Of a stretch of DNA of 64,000 nt, positions 19,216-59,600 are shown piece by piece. The position numbers and the translations under genes were made by a program. Origin of the DNA: Mactromeris polynyma. Taxonomy: Eukaryota > Mollusca > Bivalvia > Venerida > Mactridae. The stretch's first letter is position 1. Every line of letters begins with the position of its first letter. Below the pieces are notes generated by a model, which saw nothing but the letters and a program-made list of their open reading frames with translations, did no database searches and was not told the DNA's origin. Where the stretch lies: NCBI GenBank assembly GCA_032209605.1, contig JASFXZ010000040.1, positions 2,914,001-2,978,000 on the forward strand, in the 5' to 3' direction.

Positions 19216-19985
19216 AACGCAGGGGCCATATCTCTCAGTACATTGCCATTTTGGCTTCAAGAGAGTCTAAGAGGATTTTCAATTATTTGACCGTGTGACC
19301 TACTTTTTGACCCAACATGACCAAGCACCACACTGGACTTGCATTTTATTAAGACAAACATTCTGATCAAGTTTTATGTAGTTATGGTAGAAAATGCATC
19401 CTCCCGAGAATCCACAAGGATTTTCAATTATTTGCTCATGTTACCTAGTTTTTGACCTCAGATGACCCAGTTTCAATCGTGACCTAGATGTTATTAAGGC
19501 AAAAATTTGGCAAAGTCTCATGTCGATAAAGTAAACAAGAGGGCCATGGTTGCCCTATATCGCTCACCTGAGTACATTGCCATGTTGGCTGCAAGAGAGT
19601 CCGAGACGATTTTTGATGATTTGACCATGTGACCTACTTTTTGACCCAACATGACCCAGTACCACACTGATCAAGTTTTATGTATTTCCGTTATGAAAGC
19701 AGCCTCCTGATATTCCACAAGGATTTTCATCCTGTGACTTATATTTTGAGCTCAGATGACCAAGTTTCAATCTTGACCTAGATTTTATTAAGGCAAACAT
19801 TCTGACCATTTTTCATATAAATCAAGTCAAAAATGTGACCCCTGGAGTGTTAACAAGGTTTTACTATAAATTGACCTAGTGATCTTATTTTCGACCCCAT
19901 CTGACCCAGTATCAAACTCGGTCTAGATTACATTGAGACAAACATTCTGACCATGTCTCACATAAATCAAGTCAAAAAATGTGAC
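19216..19985 (+). repeat. Mollusc-type dispersed repeat, two tandem copies
   Basis: Two head-to-tail copies start near 19,216 and 19,547. Each has a CAGTACATTGCCA/GAGTACATTGCCA block, GAGAGTC, GACCTACTTTTTGACCCAAC and a later ATGACC(A/C)AGTTTCAATC block. This family is abundant in bivalve genomes by my recollection. Whether it is a LINE tail or a SINE cannot be decided here. Confidence 0.6.
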
Positions 19986-20425
19986 CACAGAAATTCACCG
20001 CTGGTATACCACTGAAGTACGAGCGACAAACTTTCAGTGGAATACCACAGAAATTCACTGCTGGTATACCACTGAAGTACGAGCAACAAACTTTCAGAGG
20101 AATACCACAGAAATTCACCGCTGGTATACCACTGAAGTACGAGCAACAAACTTTCAGAGGAATACCACAGAAATTCACTGCTGGTATACCACTGAAGTAC
20201 GAGCAACAAACTTTCAGAGGAATACCACAGAAATTCACTGCTGGTATACCACTGAAGTACGAGCAACAAACTTTCAGAGGAATACCACAGAAATTCACTG
20301 CTGGTATACCACTGAAGTACGAGCAACAAACTTTCAGAGGAATACCACAGAAATTCACTGCTGGTATACCACTGAAGTACGAGCAACAAACTTTCAGAGG
20401 AATACCACAGAAATTCACCACTGGC
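19986..20425. repeat. 60-bp minisatellite, seven units plus a partial
   Basis: Units start at 19,981 (first, variant) and then every 60 bp to 20,341; a partial unit begins at 20,401. Core words are CTGGTATACCACTGAAGTAC and GAGCAACAAACTTTCAGAGG. Sequence differences between units are few (CCG/CTG, GTGG/GAGG). Because 60 is divisible by three and the unit lacks stops in several frames, three long repetitive frames of 151-176 codons arise on both strands. They show no start context, conservation or splice logic and are not called as genes. The array sits exactly at the 3' end of the dispersed repeat before it. Confidence 0.9.
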
Positions 20426-31203: not shown

Positions 31204-34200
31204 ATGGCTGGTTCAGATACGGAAGGGTATGTTCTTACTTGAAATATTCCGTCCCTTTCATAAACAATGATGACAGCTGTTTAATCATACTTATAAATCC
31301 CACTATTATATTCTTTATCATGTAAACGTCGACATTACCACTTAGGCCGGTTTGCCCAGTTGGTAGAGCGCCTTGTTAGTGTTCTGGGATCGTGATTCAT
31401 ATGCCAGAAGAGCGACGTGTATTCAGGGCCTTCATTTAACTCTTGAAAATGCATTGTGACTCGTGAGAGTTGCAAAATTGTGTTTGTGACTCTTGAGCAT
31501 TTTACTTGAGGTTTAATTTGCATTATGCTTTAGTTAGTATCGGTCATTTTTTACTAACCTAGTGAGAGCCTGGGTATACTGATGTGGGGTAAGAGGGCCG
31601 CCCAGTTAACTCAGTCAGCAGAGTGCTGGGTTCGAGTATCCCATTGTGTGCACCTTTTCCCATGATTTACTTCATAACATGACAACTGCATGCTGTAAAA
31701 TTGTGCCACAAGATAACTGAGAAAATGTTGGGTTATCACTTGTGAAAAGTAATTTTTGAGTTTATCTTAACTAAAGTTGTCTTCAACTCAAGTTGAACTT
31801 CAAGTATTTTTATATTCATGACTCACCATGTTGGATCACAATTCAGGTTGAATGTTTTAATACCTGTTCTTATTTTTGTTTGCAGAGATGAGGTTTCCAC
31901 TGGGGTGGCTGGTGCCATGGATGTTATGACCGGCTTACAAGAAGTACTCAAAACTGCACTTATTCATGATGGATTAGCTCGTGGACTTCATGAATGTGCT
32001 AAAGCACTTGACAAGTATGTTGTAATAATTGTTCTCACATTAACTTGGCAAATAGAAATTCAGACAGACACATGTTTAATATGATATTTGTCCATTCCAT
32101 CAATCATAGAACTAGTTCTTGCATTTCAAAACTTCATGCATGTGGTGATTTCTCTCATTTTACTTGTGTATGATGGCATTTCGTGTATAATACAGTGTTT
32201 ACTGTCTAGGTATCAAGAGCATGCAAATATGTCTGACCACTAGTTATAATGTTGAGTAAAAATATTTGTAATTTTCTCATCAACAAAGTTTAAAACGATA
32301 CTTACAGCCTGGTAATAGCTGTATCTATTTTGCGAAATTTGATATCAATATGGCCTGTTGCACAGTAAATGTCCCAATTTTGTTAGCATCTAAGGCAAAA
32401 AATAAAGTTTCTTGTATTTTTATCATATTTACTTTTTTGGATACCATGATACATATAGAAACATGTCCCATTGATAAAAAGATAACTTTTTGTTTGGTAT
32501 TTGTTATTTTTACCTTTAAATATAACTCTGACTGGGAGGGGACGGACATTAGAAGTTAATGAAAAGTCTGTCTCTAAAAGATGAAGAAACACAAAGTAAC
32601 AACTTAAAATGTATTTGTTTTACATAAGTATCCAAGAAATAGCATACTCTTATAGAATTTATACTTTTTAGCTAAAATTCTTGCTTAATTAATGTCATTC
32701 CAACCAATAATTTGAAATCGGTCAAGATTTTTTCTCCAAAATATCTATTTCTTGTCTTCTGGTTTTAATCAGTTGCAATTGATATATAACATAGATATAT
32801 GAAATCATCATTATATCTGGATGCTGAGATAACATTATATTAGTTTTCTAAACTAAAATAATTGACTAATGTCAGCATTCAAGCAAGTATTTGTACATTT
32901 TCTTTGCTTAGGACGGACCTCACTTCATAAATTGGTAATGAAGGCTTATTTCGTTTAACTAAAATGACCAGAATCACTTATAACATCAATAATTATTGAG
33001 ATTAAAGACAATAAACTAAAACATATATAGCTATAAACATGTATGTAGAAAAAAAGAGAGTTAATTTTGGTAAATATTAGTGAAAAATTAAAATACAGGT
33101 GATATACCGGTATTGGTTTCTCACTGTTAAGTCTTTCTTTCAAAAGTGATTTATAAGAGTAAGAAAAGTTCTTATTTCTTCATTATTTCATTTGCACTGG
33201 GGTTTAACAATTTATGTAATTATAGAAATTTGAAATATACCATGTTTAAATCCTAAATATCACACATAAATGTTGATTTAATTTTTTAATAAATACACTT
33301 ATTTTCTAACATTCAAGGCAAGTCTGATCAACTATTTTTTATAAATTGTCTTTTAGTTTAAGTCCATAAAAATAATTTACACTTTCTCAACTTTACTGTA
33401 TATATGTGTCAGAAGGTGACAGCAAGTACTGATTGATGTATATTGGACTCCCACTGGGCCAGACACTGTGAAATGCTGATTAGGGGTCTGGATAAGATTG
33501 ATATCTAGATAGTGCACACAGGGGACAATATTGTTTATTGCATAACATTGTATAATGTGTCCAACCCAATACTGGCCTTGTTTCTGGCTCTGTTTCTGGT
33601 TTTCATCATATTATCTTAAAGTATAATTTCTGGAATTCATAGCAATATGTGTAGCAGGATTTATTGAAGATTTGAGAAATTATCCTAATATTGTAATGTC
33701 CGTCCCTTTTTTGTAATGTCCGTCCCCACACTAAATTATTTGTTTTAAAGACTGTATTGTCAATTTTAAGAAACAATTTTTACTACATGGACTTTTAACA
33801 TATATAGGCCCTTCATTATAAAATCTTGTTGATGATCATAATAGAAAAAATATCCTTTTATTGTCAAAAAGATGCCAATTTTGTGCATTTTTGTTGCAGA
33901 AGTATAAAATAGGTCCCTACCACTAAGATGCTTCACTATGAAGTAGATTTTTCTTTCTTTCTAGACAAAATAAAGGTTGTCTATGTACATAAACATAATT
34001 TTTTTCCTAAACTTGATGCCTAAAATGACTTTCATTCACACTAAATAACATTATACATAAGGGGACGGACATTACGGGGACGGACATTACAGATAACATT
34101 TCATTTTTTGCAAATAATTCCATTATAACCAAGAATAAACTGCAAATATGGACTAACATGGTATTATAATGATAAAATGTATTGAATAATATGTTTTATT

Positions 34201-37200
34201 AAACATTTTTTGTACTTATTCTTAAAAATCACATGGGGGATGGACATTACACTTTTTTTGACACAACTTGCTAAGTAGAAAAATATTTGTAAAATAAAAA
34301 AATATTGTTGATATTCTTGGCATGTATATTACATCATCCTTTTATTTGACTTATTGTCTTTATAAATATGTAGAGATTGTGGATTTCTTTTATTTATATT
34401 GTTCTTATAATTAAAAAAGTAGAATATAGGGAAATACAAAAATGGAGACCATTACATCGGTACCTATTTTGGTTTTTCAAACATAAATTAGCAAGTATTT
34501 ATGCTACAGCATTATGCCTTATACCAAACTAACAAGCATGGAATTCGTCAAAGGAAAAGCAAATGTCTTATGCAAAAAACCTATTGGTTTTCTCACAATA
34601 GTGTGTAGAAAAAGTGGGAAAAAACTGATGCTAACACATTACACATAAAAATTGACCATTTTTGGGTCTTCAAAGTTGTATAAATTTTAAACCGAAAAAG
34701 ATTTCTCAAAATAATTCACATGCACATTTAAAACTTGATGTATGTTTGTGTTTGCATTCATTTTTTTCTAAATTAAGTTTGTAGTTTTACAGAAATTAGC
34801 TTGTACAACTATTTTTAAAAAAATGGACAAAATACTGTGCAACAGGCCATATGATAAACATGTTAACTAGAACTTGCTTATTAATGAAGTATTATTTATT
34901 TAGTTTTAACACTTGTAAGACTAAGAGCTTCTTTGATGTTTTCAGACGTCAAGCCCATTTGTGTGTATTGGCAAACAACTGTGATGAAGCTATGTATGTG
35001 AAACTTGTGGAAGCTCTTTGTGCTGAGCATGGCATCAACCTTATTAAGGTACAATTGTTAAGAATGTAATAAGATAGAAACTTGAGTCTTTACAACGGAC
35101 ACAGGCCCTACCAACTGTAAGTGGCCAGTTAGTATTGTGTCTGCAGTTCATCAGCAACTAGTAAAATTGATAATGCACCTTTCATGATGAGGAAACGCAT
35201 GCTCCCTCTTCTGAAAGACAAGTTGAGAAACGTGTGTATTGTTCTCTGATGCGGTTTGCGATATTTTGTTTGATTGATGACAATTGAGGTACATTTTGTT
35301 ATGTCCTTGGTATTAAACAGGGCTCTTTCAAACATTCATACATGTTTCTCACATTTTACTAGTGTATTGTGGCATTTTGTGTATAATACAGTGTTGACTG
35401 TCTAGGTATCGGAAGTTTGCAAAGTATGTCTGACCACTCGTTGAGTAAAAGTATTTGTAATTTTACGATAAGCAAAAGTATGAAAAATTAATTAGTCTGG
35501 TAATAGCTCGATCTATTTTGCGAACCTTAATAGTAATATGGTATCGGCATTTTTTTCCAGTGTTTGAGAAGTATGGCGGGTCCTTTCGATAGGGGAAATT
35601 TTCGTCATGAATCACCAAATTTAATAGAAACTTAAAGCTTTACAATTTGGATACAGGCCCTACTTAAGTGGCCAGTTAGTATTGTGTCTGCAGTTCATCA
35701 GCAAATAGTAAAATTGATAATGCACCTTTCATGATGAGGAAACGCATGCTCCCTCTTCTGAAAGACATGTTGAGAAACGTGTGTATTGTTCTCTGATGAG
35801 GTTTGCAATATTTTGTTTAGTGACAATTGAGGTACATTTTGTCATGTCCTTGGTATTAAACAGGGCTCTTTCAAACATTCATATATATTTCTCATTTTAC
35901 TAGTGTATTGTGGCATTTTGTGTATAATACAGTGTTTACTGTCTTGGTATCAGGGTTTGCAAAATATGTCTGACCACTTGTTATGTTGAGTAAAAATATT
36001 TGTAATTTTACGATAAGCAAAATATGAAAAATTACTTACAGCCTGGTAATTGCAGGATTTGTTTTGCGAACCTTGATAGTAAAATATCGGACCTTTTTTC
36101 AGTTTTTTTTGGAAGTATGGCTGGTCCTTTTGATTAGGGGAAATTCTCGTCATGAATCTCCAAATTAAATAGAAACTATAGTCTTTACAATGGATACAGG
36201 CCCTACTAACTGTAAGTGGCCAGTTAGTATTGTGTCTAGAGTTCCATCAGCAAATAGTAAAATTGATAATGCACCTTTCATGATGAGGAAACGCATGCTC
36301 CCTCTTCTGAAAGACATGTTGAGAAACGTGTGTATTGTTCTCTGATGAGGTTTGCGATATTTTGTTTAGTGACAATTGAGGTACATTTTGTCATGTCCTT
36401 GGTATTAAACAGGGCTCTTTCAAACATTCATATATATTTCTCTCATTTTACTAGTGTATTGTGGCATTTTGTGTAAAATACAGTGATGACTGTCTAGGTA
36501 TCGGGAGTTTTCAAAGTATGTCTGACCACTTAATGAGTAAAAGTATTTGTTATTTTACGATAAACTAAGTATGAAAAATTAATTAGTCTGGTAATAGCTG
36601 AATCTATTTTGCGAACTTTATATGATATCAGCCATTTTTTTCAGTTTTTGGGGAAGTATGGTGGATCTTTTTGACAGGGGAAATTTTCATCATGAATCAC
36701 CAAATTAAATATTAACTTAAGGCTTTGCAATGGATACAGGCCCTACTAACTGAAAGTGGCCTGTTAGTATTGTGTCTGCAGTTCATCAGCAAATAGTAAA
36801 ATTGATAATACACCTTTCATGATGAGGAAACGCATGCTCCCTCTTCTGAAAGACATGTTGAGAAACGTGTGTATTGTTCTCTGATGAGGTTTGCGATATT
36901 CTAAAATAGTAAAATTGATAATGCACCTTTCATGATGATGAAACACATGCTCCCTCTTCTGAAAGACCTGTTGAGAAACGTGTGTATTGTTCTCTGATGA
37001 GGTTTGCGATATTCTAAAATAGTAAAATTGATAATACACCTTTCATGATGAGGAAACACATGCTCCCTCTTCTGAAAGACCTGTTGAGAAACGTGTGTAT
37101 TGTTCTCTGATGAGGTTTGCATTATTCTAAAATAGTAAAATTGATAATACACCTTTCATGATGAGGAAACACATGCTCCCTCTTCTGAAAGACCTGTTGA

Positions 37201-40200
37201 GAAACGTGTGTATTGTTCTCTGATGAGGTTTGCAATATTTTGTTTAGTGACAATTGAGGTACATTTTGTTATGTCCTTGGTATTAAACAGGGCTCTTTCA
37301 AACATTCATATATATTTCTCATTTTACTAGTGTATTGTGGCATTTTGTGTATAATACAGTGTTTACTGTCTTGGTATCGGGGTTTGCAAAATATGTCTGA
37401 CCACTTGTTATGTTGAGTAAAAATATTTGTAATTTTACGATAAGCAAAATATGAAAAATTACTTACAGCCTGGTAATTGCAGGATTTGTTTTGCGAACCT
37501 TGATAGTAAAATATCGGACCTTTTTTCAGTTTTTTTTGGAAGAATGGCTGGTCCTTTTGATTAGGGGAAATTCTCGTCATGAATCTCCAAATTAAATAGA
37601 AACTATAGTCTTTACAATGGATACAGGCCCTACTAACTGTAAGTGGCCAGTTAGTATTGTGTCTAGAGTTCCATCAGCAAATAGTAAAATTGATAATGCA
37701 CCTTTCATGATGATGAAACACATGCTCCCTCTTCTGAAAGACCTGTTGAGAAACGTGTGTATTGTTCTCTGATGAGGTTTGCAATATTTTGTTTAGTGAC
37801 AATTGAGGTACATTTTGTTATGTCCTTGGTATTAAACAGGGCTCTTTCAAACATTCATACATGTTTCTCTCATTTTACTAGTGTATTGTGGCATTTTGTG
37901 TAAAATACTGTGATGACTGTCTAGGTATCGGGAGTTTTCAAAGTATGTCTGACCACTTGTTATGTTGAGTAAAAATATTTGTAATTTTACGATAAGCGAA
38001 GGATGAATAATTACAGCCTGGTTATAGCAAGATTTATTTTGTGAACCTTAAAAGCAATAGGATATCGGCCTTTTTCAGTTTTTGGGAATTATGGCGGGTC
38101 CTTTCGATAAGGGAAAATTTCATCATGAATCCCAAATTAAATAGAAACTTGTAGTATTGTGTATGGAGTTCCATCAGCAAATAGTAAAATTGATAATACA
38201 CCTTTCATGATGATGAAACACATGCTCCCTCTTCTGAAAGACATGTTGAGAAACGTGTGTATTGTTCTCTGATGAGGTTTGCAATATTCTAAAATAGTAA
38301 AATTGATGATACACCTTTCATGATGATGAAACACATGCTCCCTCTTCTGAAAGACCTGTTGAGAAACGTGTGTATTGTTCTCTGATGAGGTTTGCGATAT
38401 TCTAAAATAGTAAAATTGATGATACACCTTTCATGATGATGAAACACATGCTCCCTCTTCTGAAAGACATGTTGAGAAACGTGTGTATTGTTCTCTGATG
38501 AGGTTTGCAATATTCTAAAATAGTAAAATTGATGATACACCTTTCATGATGATGAAACACATGCTCCCTCTTCTGAAAGACCTGTTGCGAAACGTGTGTA
38601 TTGTTCTCTGATGAGGTTTGCGATATTCTAAAATAGTAAAATTGATGATACACCTTTCATGATGATGAAACACATGCTCCCTCTTCTGAAAGACATGTTG
38701 AGAAACGTGTGTATTGTTCTCTGATGAGGTTTGCGATATTCTAAAATAGTAAAATTGATGATACACCTTTCATGATGATGAAACACATGCTCCCTCTTCT
38801 GAAAGACATGTTGAGAAATGTGTGTATTGTTCTCTGATGAGGTTTGCGATATTCTAAAATAGTAAAATTGATGATACACCTTTCATGATGAGGAAACACA
38901 TGCTCCCTCTTCTGAAAGACATGTTGAGAAACGTGTGTATTGTTCTCTGATGAGGTTTGCAATATTTTGTTTGATTGATGACAATTGCGGTACATTTCGT
39001 CATGTCCTTGTAATTAAACAGGGCTTTTTCAGGTTACTATGGTCCTTGATCTATCATTGTTCTCTTTAAGCCTTTCAGTTTTGTATATTAATAAGTTGAT
39101 CGAAAGAAGCCATTTATATAGAACACTAACCAATCATTGTTGCAAAAGTCCTCAAAACACTTGACTGTAAAACCAATAACAATATATATGAGTGCTGCTG
39201 TGGGATTTACAACCTCTTCTGTAAGTGACGTTGTTTCAAGAAAACGCAACATGTGATGTCACTATTTGCAAGCAGGAAACAATATTGACTCTATATGGTC
39301 ACTTCGTTTTCATATAAGTATATAGTCTGGAAATGAAGTCACTTATTGAAGAGGTTGGAAATCGTACAGCGGCGCTCGTATTAAAACTTTTCAATTGAAG
39401 TTGATGAGGGATTGATAGATTTCTGTGAAAAGTAGCTGTTCACTTGGGCCACAAATTGAATGTTGGGGGTTCCACTAAATTGGGATATCGCGGGCCATTT
39501 TGACTGGATTTTTACCATTTTATGGCCAAATTATAGGCCTGAGGGTCAAAAAGTGGCGTTTTGGAACCCATGTTAGTTCTTCTTCCGTTCTGAAAATATA
39601 CATTCTGCTTCAGGTTGATGATAACAAGAAACTTGGTGAATGGGTTGGACTGTGTAAAATCGACAAAGAAGGAAAGGCCCGAAAAGTTGTTGGCTGTAGT
39701 TGTGTTGTTGTCAAGGTAAGGTATCATCTTCTAGCATATAACTAAGCTCTTACAAGAAAGGAGTGCTCGGCATGTCAAACAAGTTTTTTTCGAATCAATG
39801 CAAGATGTCTTCATTCATACCTTTGCATATTTAAAAGATTGAAGCAACTCATTGATTAATTTTGGCTAAAGAGATACATATATACAGAAGGGATATTTTT
39901 CTGTACTATGGGTGTGATTACGTGCTGGTTAAATTTTGCAGTTTTTGAAGGTTACTTGAATTTGAGAGATCTTCAGTGAATTTAATAAAGATATAAACTA
40001 CATGGTTTCTTAATTTTTAAGCAAGGAAGTATATAAATTGTAACTACATATAACATCCAGTGTTCGTTTTGTGTGTCCTTCTACTAAACAAAATAAGATT
40101 GCAAGGCCGATGGTTTCCATCCATTGTCTTATTTACAAGACTCTTTGCTTGATGCCCATTTAATTGTACCAGTTTTAGCCTTGCGTGATGAGGAGACACA

Positions 40201-41354
40201 TGCTCCCTCTTCTTAGTGACTCCATGCAGAGAAACGTGTGTACTTGTGTCTGATGAGGCTTCTAAGTTCTCAATTGAATTTAAAAACTGACTCCTGAAAA
40301 TGTTTTCCAAAAATGGTTTATAGAGTCCCCCAAACTTAAAATAACGAGTTCATACTCGAGGAGGAATTCCCTAGAAACCTGAGGTCATTGTACATGTAAT
40401 TAGGCTGATAATAAATATGGGTAAGGAATCCTGATGTTTTGGTCTACACCACATGTCAATTTCTGTCTGTTGGAATTCTCTGTTGGGCACTTTAAAAGAT
40501 TTTACACATTATAGTTTAGTAGAAATTTGTTTAATTGTATCTAGAGGTATTAGTTGCCACTTAGTAGACAGGCTGAATTGTTTAACTTGTGTATAGACCG
40601 ACATTCGGGCAGAATAACCTCAAATTATTGTCTGACCAATAGAGTCTTTCCTGCATTTACTGGTTTTGAATTCTTAGTAACTTATTAAACTCTTCGACAT
40701 TCGGACGAGGACCTTGCAAAAACTTCGAACGCTTCACAATGTTTCAAATTTGTGTTGTATGTAAGACGACTGAGCAAATAGGGTGAAGTCTGTTTTCTTT
40801 ATCAAGGTTTACTACTAGCCTTTCTAAATGATGTTTTGTTGATCTATGATGAGGAACCACATGCTCCCTCTTCTGAATGTGTTTGTGAAGAGATACGTGT
40901 GACCATCTGTCTGAAGATTGACCTTTTATATGTGTGACCATCTGTCTGAAGATTGACCTTTTATATGTGTGACCATGTGTCTGAAGATTGACCTTTTATA
41001 TGTGTGACCATCTGTCTGAAGATTGACCTTTTATATGTGTGACAATCTGTCTGACGATTGACCTTTTATATGTGTGACCATCTGTCTGAAGATTGACCTT
41101 TCATATGAGTCAAATCATGCTTATTTACAACCAAGCTGTATTCTTGTCAGATTTGTTGTCTACAATATTTTCAAGACTGCAAGTTGTGAGGTCTATTTTA
41201 GTTCAAATTATCTACAGAATATTATGATTCGTTGCTTAATTTTTAAACCTTAACTGATGAATTTTACATGGTAGTTATGTTTATCTTGCAGGATTATGGC
41301 AAGGAATCACAAGCCTTGGACATATTGAAAGAATACTTCAACAAGAAGAAGTAA
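31204..41354 (+). CDS. RPS12: 40S ribosomal protein S12 (eS12)
   Basis: Encodes eS12, a small-subunit ribosomal protein of the L7Ae-like RNA-binding fold. Coding pieces are 31,204-31,226, 31,886-32,014, 34,946-35,048, 39,614-39,715 and 41,292-41,354; every border is GT-AG and the phases join cleanly. The product is 139 aa, against 132 in human. Clear family signatures are [51 protein letters not shown] and [17 protein letters not shown], ending EYFNKKK. The N-terminus [20 protein letters not shown] is the variable part. AATAAA at 41,406 is the likely poly(A) signal. The introns are large and repeat-filled: intron 3 holds a 2.5-kb TIR element, intron 4 an array of 15 C/D snoRNAs and intron 5 two more. 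Human RPS12 is also a snoRNA host. Confidence 0.97.
31340..31660 (+). repeat. tRNA-like SINE remnants in RPS12 intron 2
   Basis: TTTGCCCAGTTGGTAGAGCG (31,350) resembles a tRNA A-box region. AACTCAGTCAGCAGAGTGC with GGGTTCGAGTATCCC (31,606-31,643) resembles A- and B-box pieces. Both are incomplete and do not fold as full tRNAs. Confidence 0.4.
32098..32345 (+). repeat. SnoRNA-array flank unit without a snoRNA, in intron 3
   Basis: This segment (ATAATACAGTGTTTACTGTC, ATGTCTGACCACTAG, GCCTGGTAATAGCTG) matches the downstream flank of the snoRNA units in intron 4 (for example 35,340-35,550), but no box C/guide/box D core precedes it. It shows that the amplified unit once spread across, or originated on, the other side of coding exon 3. 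Confidence 0.75.
32348..34852. mobile_element. 2.5-kb TIR element in RPS12 intron 3
   Basis: The left end (32,348-32,367) is ATATGGCCTGTTGCACAGTA. The right end (34,833-34,852) is its exact reverse complement. If the element proper begins at TGGCC, TA flanks each side. The interior has six scattered copies of GGGGACGGACATTA in both orientations (about 32,538; 33,692; 33,712; 34,061; 34,076; 34,234). No transposase is recognisable. It interrupts the snoRNA-flank unit that ends near 32,345. Confidence 0.75.
35177..35255 (+). ncRNA. SNORD100: C/D-box snoRNA, array copy 1
   Basis: Box C ATGATGA (35,184), D' guide CATGCTCCCTCTT then CTGA, C'-like AAGTTGA, and box D CTGA (35,246). ACCT before box C pairs with a GGT-ending flank after box D, although this copy has TGCGGT in place of TGAGGT. 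The D' guide is complementary to the AGAGGGAGC segment of 18S rRNA. The fifth nucleotide from box D' points to the G that I place at human G436, the site assigned to SNORD100, whose human host is also RPS12. Orthology is inferred, not computed. Confidence 0.8.
35724..35802 (+). ncRNA. SNORD100: C/D-box snoRNA, array copy 2
   Basis: Box C at 35,731, D' guide as in copy 1, C' ATGTTGA, box D at 35,793. The terminal stem ACCT/AGGT is intact. It lies 547 bp after copy 1 within a repeated ~540-bp block. Confidence 0.85.
36273..36351 (+). ncRNA. SNORD100: C/D-box snoRNA, array copy 3
   Basis: Box C at 36,280, box D at 36,342. Boxes, guides and stem are the same as copy 2; it starts the third ~540-bp block. 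Confidence 0.85.
36812..36890 (+). ncRNA. SNORD100: C/D-box snoRNA, array copy 4
   Basis: Box C at 36,819, box D at 36,881. First member of an inner run of four copies at exact 113-bp spacing (copies 4-7). Confidence 0.85.
36925..37003 (+). ncRNA. SNORD100: C/D-box snoRNA, array copy 5
   Basis: Box C at 36,932 in the ATGATGATGA form (two possible registers), C' CTGTTGA, box D at 36,994. The guide regions are unchanged. Confidence 0.85.
37038..37116 (+). ncRNA. SNORD100: C/D-box snoRNA, array copy 6
   Basis: Box C at 37,045, C' CTGTTGA, box D at 37,107. Both guides are retained. Confidence 0.85.
37151..37229 (+). ncRNA. SNORD100: C/D-box snoRNA, array copy 7
   Basis: Box C at 37,158, C' CTGTTGA, box D at 37,220. 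Last of the first 113-bp run. Confidence 0.85.
37700..37778 (+). ncRNA. SNORD100: C/D-box snoRNA, array copy 8
   Basis: Box C at 37,707, C' CTGTTGA, box D at 37,769. A single copy in its own ~540-bp block. Confidence 0.85.
38200..38278 (+). ncRNA. SNORD100: C/D-box snoRNA, array copy 9
   Basis: Box C at 38,207, C' ATGTTGA, box D at 38,269. It opens the second 113-bp run, of seven copies (9-15). Confidence 0.85.
38313..38391 (+). ncRNA. SNORD100: C/D-box snoRNA, array copy 10
   Basis: Box C at 38,320, C' CTGTTGA, box D at 38,382; guides retained. Confidence 0.85.
38426..38504 (+). ncRNA. SNORD100: C/D-box snoRNA, array copy 11
   Basis: Box C at 38,433, C' ATGTTGA, box D at 38,495; guides retained. 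Confidence 0.85.
38539..38617 (+). ncRNA. SNORD100: C/D-box snoRNA, array copy 12
   Basis: Box C at 38,546, box D at 38,608. C' is changed to CTGTTGC, so the internal C'/D' motif may be weakened in this copy. Confidence 0.8.
38652..38730 (+). ncRNA. SNORD100: C/D-box snoRNA, array copy 13
   Basis: Box C at 38,659, C' ATGTTGA, box D at 38,721; guides retained. Confidence 0.85.
38765..38843 (+). ncRNA. SNORD100: C/D-box snoRNA, array copy 14
   Basis: Box C at 38,772, box D at 38,834. There is one change (GAAATGTG for GAAACGTG) upstream of the D guide. Confidence 0.85.
38878..38956 (+). ncRNA. SNORD100: C/D-box snoRNA, array copy 15
   Basis: Box C at 38,885, box D at 38,947. Last copy in intron 4, about 660 bp before the next coding exon. 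Confidence 0.85.
39463..39572 (+). repeat. Dispersed repeat, copy 2 (RPS12 intron 4)
   Basis: Relative of 24,418-24,560 (TTTTACCATTTTATGGCC, GGGTCAAAAAGTGGC). It ends about 40 bp upstream of the coding exon at 39,614, so it may contribute to the acceptor environment. Confidence 0.5.
40177..40260 (+). ncRNA. SNORD100: C/D-box snoRNA, diverged paralogue in RPS12 intron 5
   Basis: Box C GTGATGA (40,185), the same D' guide CATGCTCCCTCTT, D' changed to CTTA, box D CTGA (40,250). The terminal stem AGCCT/AGGCT gives five perfect pairs, the best stem of the set. The D guide differs from the array copies (TGTACTTGTGT). The conserved D' guide with different flanks supports a separate, older paralogue that may be the ancestral single copy. 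Confidence 0.8.
40838..40922 (+). ncRNA. SNORD100: C/D-box snoRNA, second diverged paralogue in RPS12 intron 5
   Basis: Box C ATGATGA (40,846), D' guide CATGCTCCCTCTT, D' CTGA (40,873), box D CTGA (40,911). The terminal stem GTTGATCT/AGATTGAC has eight positions, mostly paired with G-U. The D guide is different again (GTGACCATCTGT). Its 3' third has been amplified into the minisatellite that follows. Confidence 0.8.
40897..41106 (+). repeat. 35-bp minisatellite grown from a snoRNA 3' end
   Basis: Six units at exact 35-bp spacing (starts 40,897; 40,932; 40,967; 41,002; 41,037; 41,072), each GTGTGACCATCTGTCTGAAG plus ATTGACCTTTTATAT. The first unit is the D guide, box D and 3' stem of the snoRNA at 40,838. 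The later ones are downstream copies with few changes. Confidence 0.9.
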
Positions 41355-45736: not shown

Positions 45737-48700
45737 ATGGAACGCTGGGTTGGACGAGTAGCTCTTGTTACCGGTGCCTCATCGGGGTTCGGGGAAGTGA
45801 TTGCGAAACGTCTGGCAGAGTATGGAATGAAAGTTGTTGGATGTGCACGTAACATTGAAAAAATACAGGTAAAGTCTACAATAGTATATCATCTAATAAT
45901 ATATACAATGATTCGCACGTACTCGATAAGAGAATTGAATAACCTACTAAATCCTGTTGTATTCAATTCTCTTATTATTGATTGTTGCTTACATGTGTGT
46001 ACTAACATAAATTACCCTATGCTATACATGTATTACCATTGAGCATTTACATGTATAGAGGTAAATACAGTTGACTGAAATAGCTGAAGTGTTTGGGTAT
46101 ACATAGTACACGCAGTGTCATAGATAACGGAGAATTTTGGTAATGTCACAGGGACCAGTTTATTACACTGGAAACTGGACCCTATGGGTTATATGTAAGC
46201 CAAAGAGACTGACTGCATGTGCTAATAGATGTACGTTTTTTTGGTATTCGTATGGGTTTAAATTGCACTTGAAACATTCGCTGTATACCTATTGTACTAT
46301 CTGAAAACACGCCATATATACACTGATTTCGGACAGGTGCAGTATGTGTTATTTTTAAAACCAACAAATCAACTAAAATTCAATGAAAACAATCAATAAA
46401 TAGATCACTCAAACGTTTTTGAATGACAGATATGCATTCCAGGAGAAGACCTCTCGTCAAATCACCAAACATATTGAAAACTTGAGAGCAATCAACGAAA
46501 AGCGAGTATACCTTCAGATCTCTCATACCTTCCACAATTTAATTATTCCAGGCTCTGTCTGAAAGTTTAAAAGATGCTAAAGGTTCGGTATTAGCCATAC
46601 AGTGCGATGTATCAAAGGATGATCAGATCCAGGCAATGTTTGAGAAAATCAAGGAGACTTATGGAGGGGTTGATGTTTGTGTCAACAATGCTGGGTTGTC
46701 CCATAATGCACCACTCCTAAGCGGAACCACGGAACAATGGAGGAATATGCTGGACGTATGAAATATATCTTTTACTGATAACTGTTTTTGTATTTATCAA
46801 CAATATGGTATAGAAAGTAATAACAAAATGTACTTTCATCAACAATCATAAGTACAGGGGACTGATGACAGCAGATATATTATCAACAATAGTTAGGGAA
46901 AGTGATGACCGAATCATGATTCGCGTACACATTAACCAATGTATAAGTATTATTTTCAATGATAATGTTCATTAAACATATCGACCGTTTGTATTCGGTT
47001 TGAAGCTAATACCGTAAGCTATTTTTTGTTTTACCATGCTCATACGCACATAAGCGTACAAACATGACCTATATGTACATACTTCCAAGAACGCTCTTAT
47101 AGTCACGTGTTTTGTATTGAGTGACACCTAAAAGTTTTAAAAGTGTGACGACTGCGCCTACTAAAACAGCAGCGTATTTTCTATCGCCATGTTACATATA
47201 TACGAGTACATGTAGATCTGAACTGAATTATTCCTTACTTGTCAAACAGTACTTTAGTATGATTGCATAAAGAAGGCCTGATATATATTTGCAATTCGAC
47301 AAATAACTTAAAATTACCAAAATGGGGCCGCCACATATATTACTCAATTTACATTTCTGTGTTTTTATTTGCCAGGTAAATGTATTAGGATTATGCGCAT
47401 GCTCAAGAGAAGCTGTCAAATCAATGAAAGAGAGGGGAGTTGATGATGGACATATTATATTAATGAGCAGGTAACTTTTCCTTTCTATTTGTTGATATTA
47501 AAATTCATTATATCCTTAACAAATTATAAATCTATCAAACCATACGGACATTTCAAGTATTTGAATGTTAAGTCACACTGTGTATAAACAGATATATGGA
47601 GGGTTTTGACTGAAGACTTTTGTCTAGTTAAGTAAAGAAGCAGCTGCGAATGTTTTCAATGATTATTGCAACTGTATTATTTGAATGTAATGCACACGTC
47701 TTTGATATATTTATATGATACATAAATATTATGCAGTGAAACCTCAATAATAAGACCTCCCTTTGGACTTTGAAAACTAGTCTTAATAATGAGGTGGTCT
47801 TAATATCGAGGTTGAATAATGAGCGAAACAGTCAAAATGAACTTCAAAGGTTTGGTCTTACTTTTGAGGTGGTCTTTAAGTGAGGTTTTATTGTATATTC
47901 ATTGAGTTGAAGCACTTTTAGCAATATGATAGTTGCATGATTGTAGGTGGATGCGTAAGCCAACGTGTCTATGTTTCCTTGCTCTAACCTATTCACCATT
48001 GTAAGATATTCACACTTCAAACATTGCATGAATCAGAATGCTTTGTTATATTAATCTCATCAATACATGTGTATATTTCTTATTTCTAGCATGTCTGGAT
48101 ACCGAATTGTTCCAAATGCGCCCCACATTCATTTCTACGCAGCAACCAAGTATGCCGTGAGAGCTATTACAGATGGTTTACGTAATGAATTAGTTGCTAT
48201 GAAAAGTCACATTAGAGTTACAGTGAGTAAAAAATCAAGCTTTAAGAAAAAAGACACTAAAAGCTACTCAAAATATATGGAGAGACCTTTTTTGTGAATA
48301 TGGCCTTACCTGGGCCACTCCTTACCTTTATGGAGATTTTGAAATATTAGCAAATATGATTGTAAGATGCATATGGGAACACAACAGTTCAGCTGAGATT
48401 TATTGGATAACTTGCGACTATAACATGTGCACACATGTAAATGGGTCTCATAATGATTTTGTGCAAACTTGTCCAGTTCAGTACTCTATATTTTACTATT
48501 GCACCCATGGTTGTTTCCATAGACACACATGACTTGTTTGGCAGCATTGTAATTTGTGATGTGCCACCTGCTTATGTTCATGCCGTGCCAATCATATAGA
48601 TCAGTTGCACTCAGTAACCTGTACGTTGAATTAGTCTGTTACTCTTGTTTTATAGTGTTAGTTGAACTCATTATTATTGATGCCTGTGTTAAGATGACTA

Positions 48701-51094: not shown

Positions 51095-52966
51095 GGGAAG
51101 CATTAGAGTAGATCCGTCTTACGTACGAAGCAGTAGATCCGTTTAACGTACAGTATTCCTACGCTAAAACCTCTACCATACAGTTTGACCCATACTTTGT
51201 TATTTACAAGAGTAGATCCGGCTAACGTTGTTTACTGGTTAAAGGGGGGCATATTGTATCATACAACATAAAATGTAAGAGTAGATCCGGCTTACGTACA
51301 CCCGTACTAGAGTAGATCCGTCTTACGTACAACCCACTTAAACAGAGTATAAATAGCTGGAAAGGTTGTAATATACAAGATTTAATCAGGCTTACGTTGT
51401 TTACTGGTTAGAGGGGGGCAAATTGTATAAAAAAAACATAAAATGTAAGAGTAGATCCGGCTTACGTACACACGTACTAGAGTAGATCCGTCTTACGTAC
51501 AACCCACTTAAACAGAGTATAAATAGCTGGAAATATTGTAATATACAAGAGTAGATCCGGCTTACGTTGTTTACTGGTTAGAGGGGTGCATATTGTATCA
51601 AAAACATAAAATGTAAGAGTAGATCCGGCTAACGTACACCCGTACTAGAGTAGATCCGTCTTACGTACAACCCACTTAAACAGAGTATTAATAGCTGGAA
51701 AGGTTGTAATATACAATAGTTGATCTGGCTAACGTTGTTTACTGGTTAGAGGGGTGCATATTGTATCAAAAACACAAAATGTAAGAGTAGATCCGGCTTA
51801 CGTACATCCGTACTAGAGTAGATCCGTCTTACGTACAACCCACTTAAAAAGAGTATTAATAGCTGGAAAGGCTGTTATATACAAGAGTAGATCCGGCTAA
51901 CGTTGTTTACTGGTAAGAGGGGTGCAAATTGTATAAAAAACATAAAATGTAAGAGTAGATCCGGCTTACGTACACCCGTACTATAGAAGATCCGTCTTAC
52001 GTACAACCCACTTAAACAGAGTATAACTAGCTGGAAAGGTTGTAATACACATGAGTTTATCAGGCTAACGTTGTTTAGTGGTTAGAGGGGTGCATATTGT
52101 ATCAAAAAACATAAAATGTAAGAGTAGATCCGGCTTACGTACACCCGTTCTAGAGTAGATCCGTCTTACGTACAGCCGTACTAGAGTAGATCCGTCTTAC
52201 GTGTTTTAGAGGTAAAGCGAGCACTTACAGTTAGAAAGATTGTTTATGACAAGAGTGGATCCGGCTTACGTTATGTCCAACATCCTTGTTACGTTTTGTA
52301 ATTATTGATACAGCCTCTCTTGAAATTCCGAATGCGAGAGGTCTAGTGTTCGATTCCTGGCAGCGTCATATCAAAGTCGTTAATACGGTACTGGTAAGGA
52401 GTCCGTCTTTGGTGCTCAGCATAGTAAGTTCCAGATAACACTTACTTAGTTCGGAGTTAGGATATTGTGAATGAGTAATTTCTTTGACTGAAATATTGCT
52501 CACCAGTTGGACAATAAAATCAAACACATCAAACAGTTATAGAATATGTGATGGGAGACCTGTTTGTAGTTAAAGGTCACGGTGACCTTGACCTTTGAAA
52601 TAGTGACATTAAAAAAATAACGTACACACATCCAAGTACAGTTTGAGGATCTTACGTCCAATCGTTCTCGACTTATTGAAAAAGTTTCACAGAGAAGATC
52701 GTTACTGTTCAACAGTATGGTGTAGGGTTTTTGCTGCTTGTTTTCAGAGAAAACGAAAGTAGACTGAATTACCAACAAACAATCAAATTGATAGTAAACA
52801 ATATTTATTTATGTTTGTTTAACTCATCTGTACAGAACACAAATCATATAAAATTGTATCGTATCATGGATAACCAAAAACGAAGTACTACTTTTGACCA
52901 AATAACGATGTACGTTAAACGGATCTACTCCTGCGTACGTTAAACGGATCTACTATAATGCTTCCC
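51095..52966. mobile_element. 1,872-bp TIR element filled with GTAGATCCG repeats
   Basis: The left end reads GGGAAGCATTAGAGTAGATC and the right end, on the other strand, GGGAAGCATTATAGTAGATC. The inverted match extends to about 33 bp with three differences. TTTGACATT flanks both sides (51,086-51,094; 52,967-52,975), a 9-bp target duplication. Nine bp is usual for Mutator-like elements (8 for hAT), so a non-autonomous MULE-like element is the best guess. About 22 copies of AGAGTAGATCCGGCTTACGT or the TCTTACGT variant occupy it. No transposase frame is present. Confidence 0.88.
51100..52275 (+). repeat. 168-170-bp higher-order repeat of the AGTAGATCCG motif
   Basis: The landmark GTTGTTTACTGGTT recurs at 51,227; 51,396; 51,566; 51,734; 51,902 and 52,070. 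Each unit carries three ~20-bp motifs, AGTAGATCCGGCTTACGT or AGTAGATCCGTCTTACGT, separated by ACACCCGTACTAG, CAACCCACTTAAACAG and a CATAAAATGTAAG stretch. The TACGTA core makes each motif partly palindromic. The same motif forms the element's TIRs. Confidence 0.9.
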
Positions 52967-56649: not shown

Positions 56650-59600
56650 ATGAATTGGACTGTACTTACTGCGATTCTGTGTTTGTTTGGATTTGTGAAG
56701 GAAATGCGGCCGTCAGAGGCGTACCTTACATTGTATTTAACGGGACCTTGGAAAAATCTCACGGTTGAAGAAGTGGACAATGAAGTTTATCCTTGGTGGA
56801 CATATTCTTATTTGATCTGGTTAGTACCCGTGTTCTTGCTGACGGACTATCTGCGATACAAACCAGTTCTGGTCTTAGATGGTTTGGCATATATTGGAAC
56901 ATGGTCTCTCCTGTTGTGGGCTCAGGGTGTGCCGGCTATGAAATGGATGCAGGTTTTATATGGACTGGTGTCCGCTGCTAATGTTGCATATTACTCTTAC
57001 CTTTATGTGGAAGTACCTGTGGAACACTACCAAAAGATAACTAGTTTCACGCGTGCCGCAACACTGACTGGAAATTTTGTGTCGTATGTTATTGCTCAGC
57101 TACTTTACTCGTATCATTTGATGGATTTATACGATCTCAATGTGTTTTCATTTGTTTCTGTCTGTGTTGCATTTCTGATAATACTTGTCTTACCCTGGCC
57201 AAAGCATTCGGAAATATTTCATAGACAACAACAACATCATGATTATTCTGAAACGCCACACTCTTCCAGAACTAACCAATTTGGTTATTCCACATTTAGA
57301 GACGAAGCTTCTGCTAGTCACCCACCAGTGGAGTCATCTAGTTCAACATATTCAGTACATACTGTCGACGAAAGTGCCCAAGCAAAGGGAAGTCGTGCGT
57401 GTCATGGAGCTTGTTATGACGGGTTTGTGTTCATATGGACGGAAGTCAAATGCATTTATAATTCTAGACTTGTAATTGTTTGGTCAGTATGGTGGGCCTT
57501 AGCTTCATGTGGAAATTTCCAGGTACTGAACTATGTGCAGAATCTATGGTCTGTGATATCTGCCCAAGATAGCCCTGGTCACGTTAAGGATGTGTATAAC
57601 GGCGCTGTTGAGGCTGCAGCAACGTTAATAAGTATGTATATAAAATATATATATATGTTAATTGTATATGAAGATTATGCTTAAACATTTTGCTTTGAAA
57701 ATCACTTTGTCGTAGCTTCGCCGATGTTGATACATGCGTATAGTTCCACTTTTTGTCGCATTAGGAATAAGATCGATATTTTCATGTAGGATATTTAAAT
57801 ACACTGAACGAACTTTTAACGGCCATGTTTTTATTCTTTCAGGTAGTATCATGGTTATCATTGTGGGATTTTTACCGATAGATTGGTCTAAAAGGGCGGA
57901 GTTCTTTATGGCGATTGTATGTGCGGGAAATACAGCTTTCTTAATTATCATGGCTAACACATCCAGTATCTGGGTTGCTTATGCCATGTACGTGTTATTT
58001 AGAATTTCCTACTCGACTGTCATCACCATAGCAAGGTAAGTACGATCTCTGCGTTTAAGTATTAACATTAGACTCTACAATTTTCTTTAAATTTTATACA
58101 ATCGTGTATTATGCAAAGGACTAATTGAGTCATGCATTGAAAATCTCCATGTATTGATAAATCTGTTTTTTTAATCCTGATTCGAAAGATATCGAAATGA
58201 GATATTTGAGTTTGTTTTAAGGCGGCAATATAACTGTATATTATATACTGATACAGCAGTTCCATATAGGTTTATTAACCAATTATACAATGTGGCAACC
58301 ATATGTATTATTTCCAGTGCCCAGATAGCCCAGCACCTGGTGAAGGACAGATACGGCCTCGTGTTCGGGTGTAACATGTTTGTAGCGTTAAGTATTGAGA
58401 CCATTCTCACTGTGATTGTAGTGGACAAGGCGGGGCTTGGTGTGGATGTCGTTGTACAGGTATTTATCGGCCCAAGTTTATAATTTTTCACATCTTTGCA
58501 TTGGGTTTTATCTCCCAACATAAAGAATAAGGTACGTGTATTAGACAATACCAAATTGAATCTGTATTTAGCGTCTGGTTCGTTTTTCAAAACCTATCTA
58601 CCAGACAGGAAAATAACCGTGAATGAAATGTCAATAAAAACAAAATTTGTTTTGACTATCAAGGAACACACTTATTAGATAACCGGTTCTAATAAATTTG
58701 TATTATCGCATTAATTAATCCGTGGAACTGATATTACAATTAAAACATTAACGTCCTTCTTCTATAGTATATATTTTATAATTGTACTAAGTGACATTGA
58801 TAAAAAATATGCTTTTGCGTCGGTTGATATTTCATATTATGAGTCTATACATTGTATCTAAGCCAGAAGTAAACTGTATTAGGCGTGGTTTCACGCTGAA
58901 CGCAGTTTCAGAAAGAATCGCCGAAAACTGTAATATTTACGTACTATACAACCTCAATTACAGTATACGCCGAAATTATGACCACCCCATGAATACGCCC
59001 GTATTTCATGGACCCGTTTTTCCTTCGTCTATATTCTAACTCGATAATGCGACCATCTCAGTGACCTCACATCTCAGACCATCTTTCACCAGAACCGACG
59101 GTGGTCTTATTTTTGAGGTTTCATCAAACCGAATCTTAAGTAATTTTAGGCTTATTAGTCCCCCCGGCGTCAAAACATTACAGAAGTGAACTAAAACGGG
59201 TTTTTAACTACTTATTATACAAACATGTTCAATGATAAAAATGTAACTTTTATGTGATTGTCCAGTTGATTTAACACCTATTTGTGCTGAAAATAACTGA
59301 TCCCTGAAAGTGTGCATACCTTCTACCTAGTACAGACATTTACTACTAATTAATTTTGTCAGAGCGACTCTCTCATTCGGTAGAGAATGCGAATCTTAAT
59401 CTCAGGATCGCGGGTTCGAGCCCCACGGTGGGCGCTTACGTCTTTCCATATGTCGTTTTTTTAAAGTTTAAACACCTACAACGACCTGTTGGCTGTAGAA
59501 GATTTTTAATATTATTTATTTATAAACAATAGTCGTTTACATTTTCCCTGAAGTAAATAATGATTTTGCCTTTTATTTTATTTTATTTATGGTATATATC

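Follow-up and report, generated by a model that had tools for sequence, protein, structure and literature searches.

Fifteen near-identical box C/D snoRNA units within a single intron of RPS12 in the bivalve Mactromeris polynyma

How might an intron of a ribosomal protein gene come to hold fifteen copies of one small nucleolar RNA (snoRNA), and what might so many copies do? The question is raised by a 64,000-nucleotide stretch of the Mactromeris polynyma genome (contig JASFXZ010000040.1, positions 2,914,001 to 2,978,000; hereafter the window), in which the third coding intron of RPS12 carries a tandem family of box C/D units. The fifteen-unit array is real. Its guide and the matching 18S ribosomal RNA (rRNA) support the model that these SNORD100-like copies would likely guide 2'-O-methylation at G411, and since all copies likely have this guidance in common, the array probably raises the supply of one guide, a reading to which we give about an even chance. 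The kind of locus is already known, both as intronic C/D cluster and as tandem snoRNA repeat; its scale and single-guide composition in an intron of a protein gene are the new part.

The array and its host gene

Intron 3 contains 15 box C/D units of 80 nt each on the host strand, arranged as follows.

31204..41354, + strand: RPS12 (eS12) host gene, five coding exons rebuilt with GT..AG introns, 139-amino-acid protein
31204-31226, 31886-32014, 34946-35048, 39614-39715 and 41292-41354, + strand: RPS12 coding exons
35049..39613, + strand: RPS12 coding intron 3 from the exon rebuild, 4,565 nt, bearing the array
35177..35256, + strand: unit 1, boxes and guide intact, terminal stem broken by an A-to-C change at unit position 76; the next spacer has 467 nt
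35724..36811, + strand: units 2 (35724-35803) and 3 (36273-36352), followed by long spacers of 469 and 459 nt, respectively
36812..37230, + strand: block A, units 4-7, 113-bp spacing with 33-nt linkers
37700..37779, + strand: unit 8, flanked by long spacers of 469 and 420 nt
38200..38957, + strand: block B, units 9-15, 113-bp spacing with 33-nt linkers
Starts of units 1-8: 35177, 35724, 36273, 36812, 36925, 37038, 37151, 37700
Starts of units 9-15: 38200, 38313, 38426, 38539, 38652, 38765, 38878

Box C (RUGAUGA), box D', box D (CUGA) and a 13-nt guide are unchanged in 15/15 units, which comprise 8 distinct sequences (four occurring once, four common to two or three units each) and vary at 7 of 80 positions, namely 15, 21, 44, 45, 50, 55 and 76. 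The initial annotation had described near-identical 79-nt units with boxes C, D and D'; the units are as it said, but 80 nt long. It had also given every unit a terminal stem and a box C', which does not hold for unit 1, whose stem is disrupted, or for units 1 and 12, in which the presumed box C' (unit positions 45-50) is altered. Its family size of 15 is correct for intron 3, but the gene has 17 members, the other two being diverged relatives in coding intron 4 (copies 16 and 17).

The placement of the whole array on the host strand of a single RPS12 intron, likewise proposed in that annotation, agrees with the rebuilt exons. The predicted protein matches the Pfam family Ribosomal_L7Ae (PF01248, L7Ae/S12e family; E=1.2e-29), and its best protein matches are from Mactra antiquata (93%) and Dreissena polymorpha (90%), both members of Imparidentia, Bivalvia, which points to a heterodont bivalve. 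A search for RPS12 relatives in viral contigs found none.

A 28-nt pattern with up to 3 mismatches gave 17 matches in the window and 0 in 100 shuffles. A de novo scan of the 64 kb, which required only boxes C and D and a terminal stem of 5 bp or longer, returned 26 candidates on the plus strand. Counting alternative registers, 22 of these lie in RPS12 intron 3 and the other 4 in intron 4. The minus strand yielded 2 candidates, one within intron 3. Unit 1 escaped the scan because its terminal stem is disrupted. With a model built from the 17 copies, which match it by construction, the copies scored 67.6-115.2 bits and the rest of the window at most 10.4. Across the whole genome (792.8 Mb), a 35-nt pattern with up to 3 mismatches found the 15 array units only, and its reversed control found 0; copies 16 and 17 exceed this mismatch limit, and equally diverged copies elsewhere would escape the search. 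A 30-nt snoRNA pattern had no match in bacterial/archaeal or viral contigs.

The guide and its 18S rRNA target

All 17 copies carry the 13-nt guide upstream of box D', which reads CTGA in 15/15 units and copy 17 and CTTA in copy 16. The guide can form 13 consecutive pairs (12 Watson-Crick, 1 G.U) with 18S rRNA from the same genome; G411 is then fifth from box D' (pairing computed for units 1, 2, 5 and 13 and copies 16 and 17), and 11 of 2000 shuffled guides reached 13 pairs with 18S. This is the site expected of SNORD100, the predicted guide for human 18S G436 according to PMC3412847; from its context and that account, G411 appears equivalent to G436.

The true target sequence was read from an 18S gene located by a different pattern, two exact 22-mers (one human-type, one mollusc-type) being absent from the genome and the true sequence differing from both. 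In an 18S copy on a 5-kb contig, the guide target site contains 2 inserted nucleotides (GGAGAGAGGGAGC), possibly an assembly error or a ribosomal DNA variant. Compensatory change between guide and target was considered, as 18S GAGCAUG and guide CAUGCUC stand against GGCUCC in the Rfam SNORD100 consensus guide; we do not claim coevolution, because plant snoR30 also reads AUGCUC.

The guides next to box D have no comparable match. Array units reach only a 9-bp run with 18S (C502), the different box D guide of copy 16 has runs of 11 bp (A61) and 10 bp (G538), and that of copy 17 has no 18S match; no 5.8S match was listed for box D guides. Of 28S, the first ~157 model positions were covered, and the box D guide may have a second target. 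The array's second guide, TGTATTGTTCT, before box D (for example, at 38703-38720) may be able to pair with U6 small nuclear RNA.

The relatives in intron 4 have the following features.

40178..40261, + strand: copy 16, diverged relative, box C GTGATGA, degenerate box D' CTTA, box D CTGA, same 13-nt guide
40839..40921, + strand: copy 17, SNORD100-like (Rfam RF00609, 35.3 bits, E=2.5e-4), same 13-nt guide
40893..41107, + strand: tandem repeat of the 3' end of copy 17 (box D and 3' stem strand included), 35-nt period, 6.1 copies

Both copies have boxes C and D, and their terminal stems of 7 and 8 bp, different in sequence, are seldom equaled by shuffles (0.018 and 0.0125, respectively; in this test the box D anchor lay one base early, which the allowed offset absorbed). 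In copy 17, box D and the stem strand that matches it occur again at 35 and at 70 nt downstream, in a scan reaching 140 nt from box C, and the tandemly repeated 3' end thus offers alternative 3' ends at those distances.

Probable selection on the guide half

The comparison most informative about selection is between introns. From box C to D', unit 15 matches copy 17 at 30/31 positions, with ungapped flanks identical at 32/90 and 25/91; it matches copy 16 at 28/31 (flanks 23/90 and 30/91), and copies 16 and 17 match each other at 27/31 (flanks 21/90 and 21/91). Because identity of this order lies beside near-random flanks, the guide half has been preserved while its surroundings decayed, and the 30/31 identity of the array unit and copy 17 argues for selection on the guide half.

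Variation inside the array is weaker evidence. None of 28 functional positions varies, versus 7 of 52 others (p=0.042). A column test over the gap-free columns of four of the five long modules (m7 being omitted as a recent copy of m2) found variation in 7/160 snoRNA versus 72/404 spacer columns (p=1.1e-5), or in 5/80 snoRNA columns with the 5' unit alone (p=0.007). We do not rely on this test for selection, because the flanks within ~100 nt are about as similar as the units, and selection alone therefore need not account for the near-identity of the array.

Growth of the array

Five long spacers (420-469 nt) and nine 33-nt linkers separate the units, with repeat periods of 549 and 113 bp. One junction is common to all nine linkers, and the 113-bp unit therefore probably arose once and expanded in two blocks (4 + 7 units). 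Variants at position 44 and in the linker that follows alternate in the same way in units 9-10 and 11-12, as would result from exchange of a 226-bp dimer. Long spacers L2 and L7 are identical at 466/469 positions, compared with 88-91% for the other nine spacer pairs, from which we infer a recent segmental copy. The common junction, the dimer pattern and the L2/L7 identity suggest growth by nested unequal exchange and favor the unequal crossing-over first proposed for this locus.

Part of the spacer sequence is found outside the array.

35890..36078, + strand: part of spacer L2, 83% identical to 32153-32344 in intron 2

The scans found no snoRNA in intron 2, despite this ~190-nt spacer relative. 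Nucleotides 261-375 of long spacer L3 (about 36613-36727) contain a dispersed repeat of ~80-110 nt, for which 40 of 1364 first-look candidates genome-wide were scored; Rfam at gathering scores found nothing in three of its loci (L016-L018). Spread of the snoRNA by a mobile element was considered and is not supported: among 45 reported spacer matches, those outside RPS12 all fall within spacer nt 261-375, matches to the remaining long-spacer sequence were reported from RPS12 alone, and the snoRNA pattern occurred solely in the array.

The window has two other tandem arrays, at 51197-52202 (168-bp unit, 5.8 copies, with a 31-bp unit at its end) and at 19984-20418 (60-bp unit, 7.2 copies). Neighboring coding stretches are an open reading frame of the reduced folate carrier family at 56650-57684 (PF01770) and a short-chain dehydrogenase open reading frame at 45737-46042 (PF00106).

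Family membership and comparable systems

Kinship with SNORD100, the initial assignment, is borne out by the RPS12 host, the 13-bp pairing to the animal's own 18S and the SNORD100-like copy in the next intron. Copy 17 nevertheless scores below the RF00609 gathering score of 58, and the array units are absent from RF00609 matches at E<=10, a list that does not display the lower of two overlapping matches within a clan. The best array score is 27.7 bits, to snoR30 (RF00046), whose gathering score is 60. The guide and D' stretch AUGCUCCCUCUUCUGA of the array is identical to the snoR30 consensus; because of the low score, we regard this as likeness in the guide and not as membership in this plant family.

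According to PMC3412847, SNORD100 (HBII-429) is an RPS12 intron snoRNA in animals ranging from sponges to vertebrates, those that have lost many introns excepted, and its expression was verified. The present locus resembles it in host gene, box C/D design and a D' guide for the 18S site. It differs in that no array appears in the accessible part of that account, whereas here there are 15 near-identical units and two more in the next intron, and in the divergence of the array units from the Rfam model.

Arrays such as SNORD115/116 hold one snoRNA per intron. In SNORD115/116, SNORD113/114 and rat Bsr, as in the RPS12 array, one C/D snoRNA was amplified locally in tandem through recombination (PMC11028025), but these are described as orphan snoRNAs in imprinted loci and in repeated introns of a host RNA, whereas the units described here occupy a single intron of a ribosomal protein gene and match rRNA. 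Intronic clusters in plants and Plasmodium and mammalian small nucleolar long noncoding RNAs (sno-lncRNAs) also place more than one snoRNA in an intron (PMC2656528, PMC4234469); in the available portions of these sources they are pairs, or plant clusters of unstated size, in contrast to 15 units of one guide. Among the papers listed in searches of the open-licence literature on snoRNA hosts, processing and arrays, none mentions in its title or the beginning of its abstract many copies of a single snoRNA within one intron of a protein gene. Intronic snoRNA clusters exist in Drosophila, and rice clusters were reportedly described by Liang in 2002.

Release from the intron

The distance from the end of box D to the 3' splice site is 663 nt for the last unit and 377 nt for copy 17, both well beyond the roughly 70-90 nt that is optimal in vertebrates. 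Intronic snoRNAs are released by splicing, debranching and exonuclease trimming, and intronic clusters are a known arrangement, according to PMC11028025, PMC4234469 and PMC12205218. The premise of the initial annotation that an intron normally yields about one snoRNA was thus too strict, since these reviews describe clusters and, in mammals, sno-lncRNAs arising from two snoRNAs in one intron (PMC11028025, PMC4234469). A 2025 study adds that endonucleolytic cleavage can also excise intronic snoRNAs and that the factors for co-hosted nonintronic snoRNAs are largely unknown in fission yeast and human (PMC12508059).

With fifteen protected units, trimming from the outer ends alone would yield one ~3.8-kb piece and free no unit singly. 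We consider internal cuts in A/T-rich linkers the most likely means of release. The units would be transcribed with RPS12 and assembled into small nucleolar ribonucleoproteins (snoRNPs) while the intron is still nascent. Once the intron has been spliced out and debranched, exonucleases would trim it inward from its two ends, and cutting of the exposed linkers between protected units would let single copies mature. Folding of the 788 nt of block B gave a structure only slightly more stable than those of 20 shuffles (z -1.97). As a candidate RNase III-type hairpin we considered a 19-bp helix in L2, which we did not take for a conserved feature because its inverted repeat is missing from the five longest pairs displayed for each of L1, L3 and L8 (of 7, 10 and 5 found; the scan covered long spacers other than L7, which is 99.4% like L2).

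Weighing the explanations

Several observations weigh against raised supply of a G411 guide. Unit 1 lacks a good terminal stem (2 bp, equaled by shuffles at 0.82), and the 5-bp stem of unit 13, the other array unit tested, is equaled by 12% of shuffles. The lower variation at functional positions is weak, and similarity between modules is about the same in flanks within ~100 nt as in the units. The guide could come from copies 16 and 17 alone. Another 18S site, G1142, can pair over 12 nt, three G.U included. Within the window no family reaches its gathering score, and the array units peak at 27.7 bits, against the plant family snoR30. No conserved RNase III-type cleavage hairpin was recognized in the examined spacers (L1, L2, L3 and L8).

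The array could instead be a satellite-like passenger, in which one functional snoRNA was caught in a tandemly expanding intron segment and the extra copies were homogenized and mostly degraded with the intron, leaving guide supply unchanged. Expansion with a common junction, the similarity of the near flanks, the guide kept by copies 16 and 17 and the presence of other tandem arrays in the window all favor this explanation, which we consider possible although clearly the less probable one; retention of box C, guide, D' and D in 15/15 units and the absence of variation at 28 functional positions speak against it.

We think it unlikely that exonucleases would halt at the first and last units and leave a stable ~3.8-kb fragment with 15 snoRNPs, an oversized analogue of sno-lncRNAs. 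The mammalian precedent with two snoRNAs per intron (PMC11028025, PMC4234469) and the lack of a recognized conserved internal cleavage hairpin in the examined spacers are in its favor, but unit 1, the would-be 5' cap, has a disrupted terminal stem. It is improbable, though conceivable, that such a 3.8-kb string of up to fifteen snoRNPs would serve both as a reserve of ready guide snoRNPs and as a sink for the core proteins of C/D snoRNPs, produced one-to-one with RPS12 splicing. An assembly artifact inflating or collapsing copy number is highly improbable, for although tandem arrays are hard to assemble, there are 8 distinct sequences among the 15 units, the long spacers differ by ~10% (L2/L7 excepted), and the pattern lies at one locus only, on a 4.9-Mb contig of the 792.8-Mb assembly.

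Implications

The freeing of single copies from an animal intron with many snoRNPs is a poorly understood process. In this array, the eight distinct unit sequences can serve as natural barcodes, with copy 17, which lies in the neighboring intron of that transcript, as an internal control; ordinary small-RNA sequencing can therefore show which parts of the array survive. The array also offers a test of whether guide copy number sets the level of methylation at one rRNA site.

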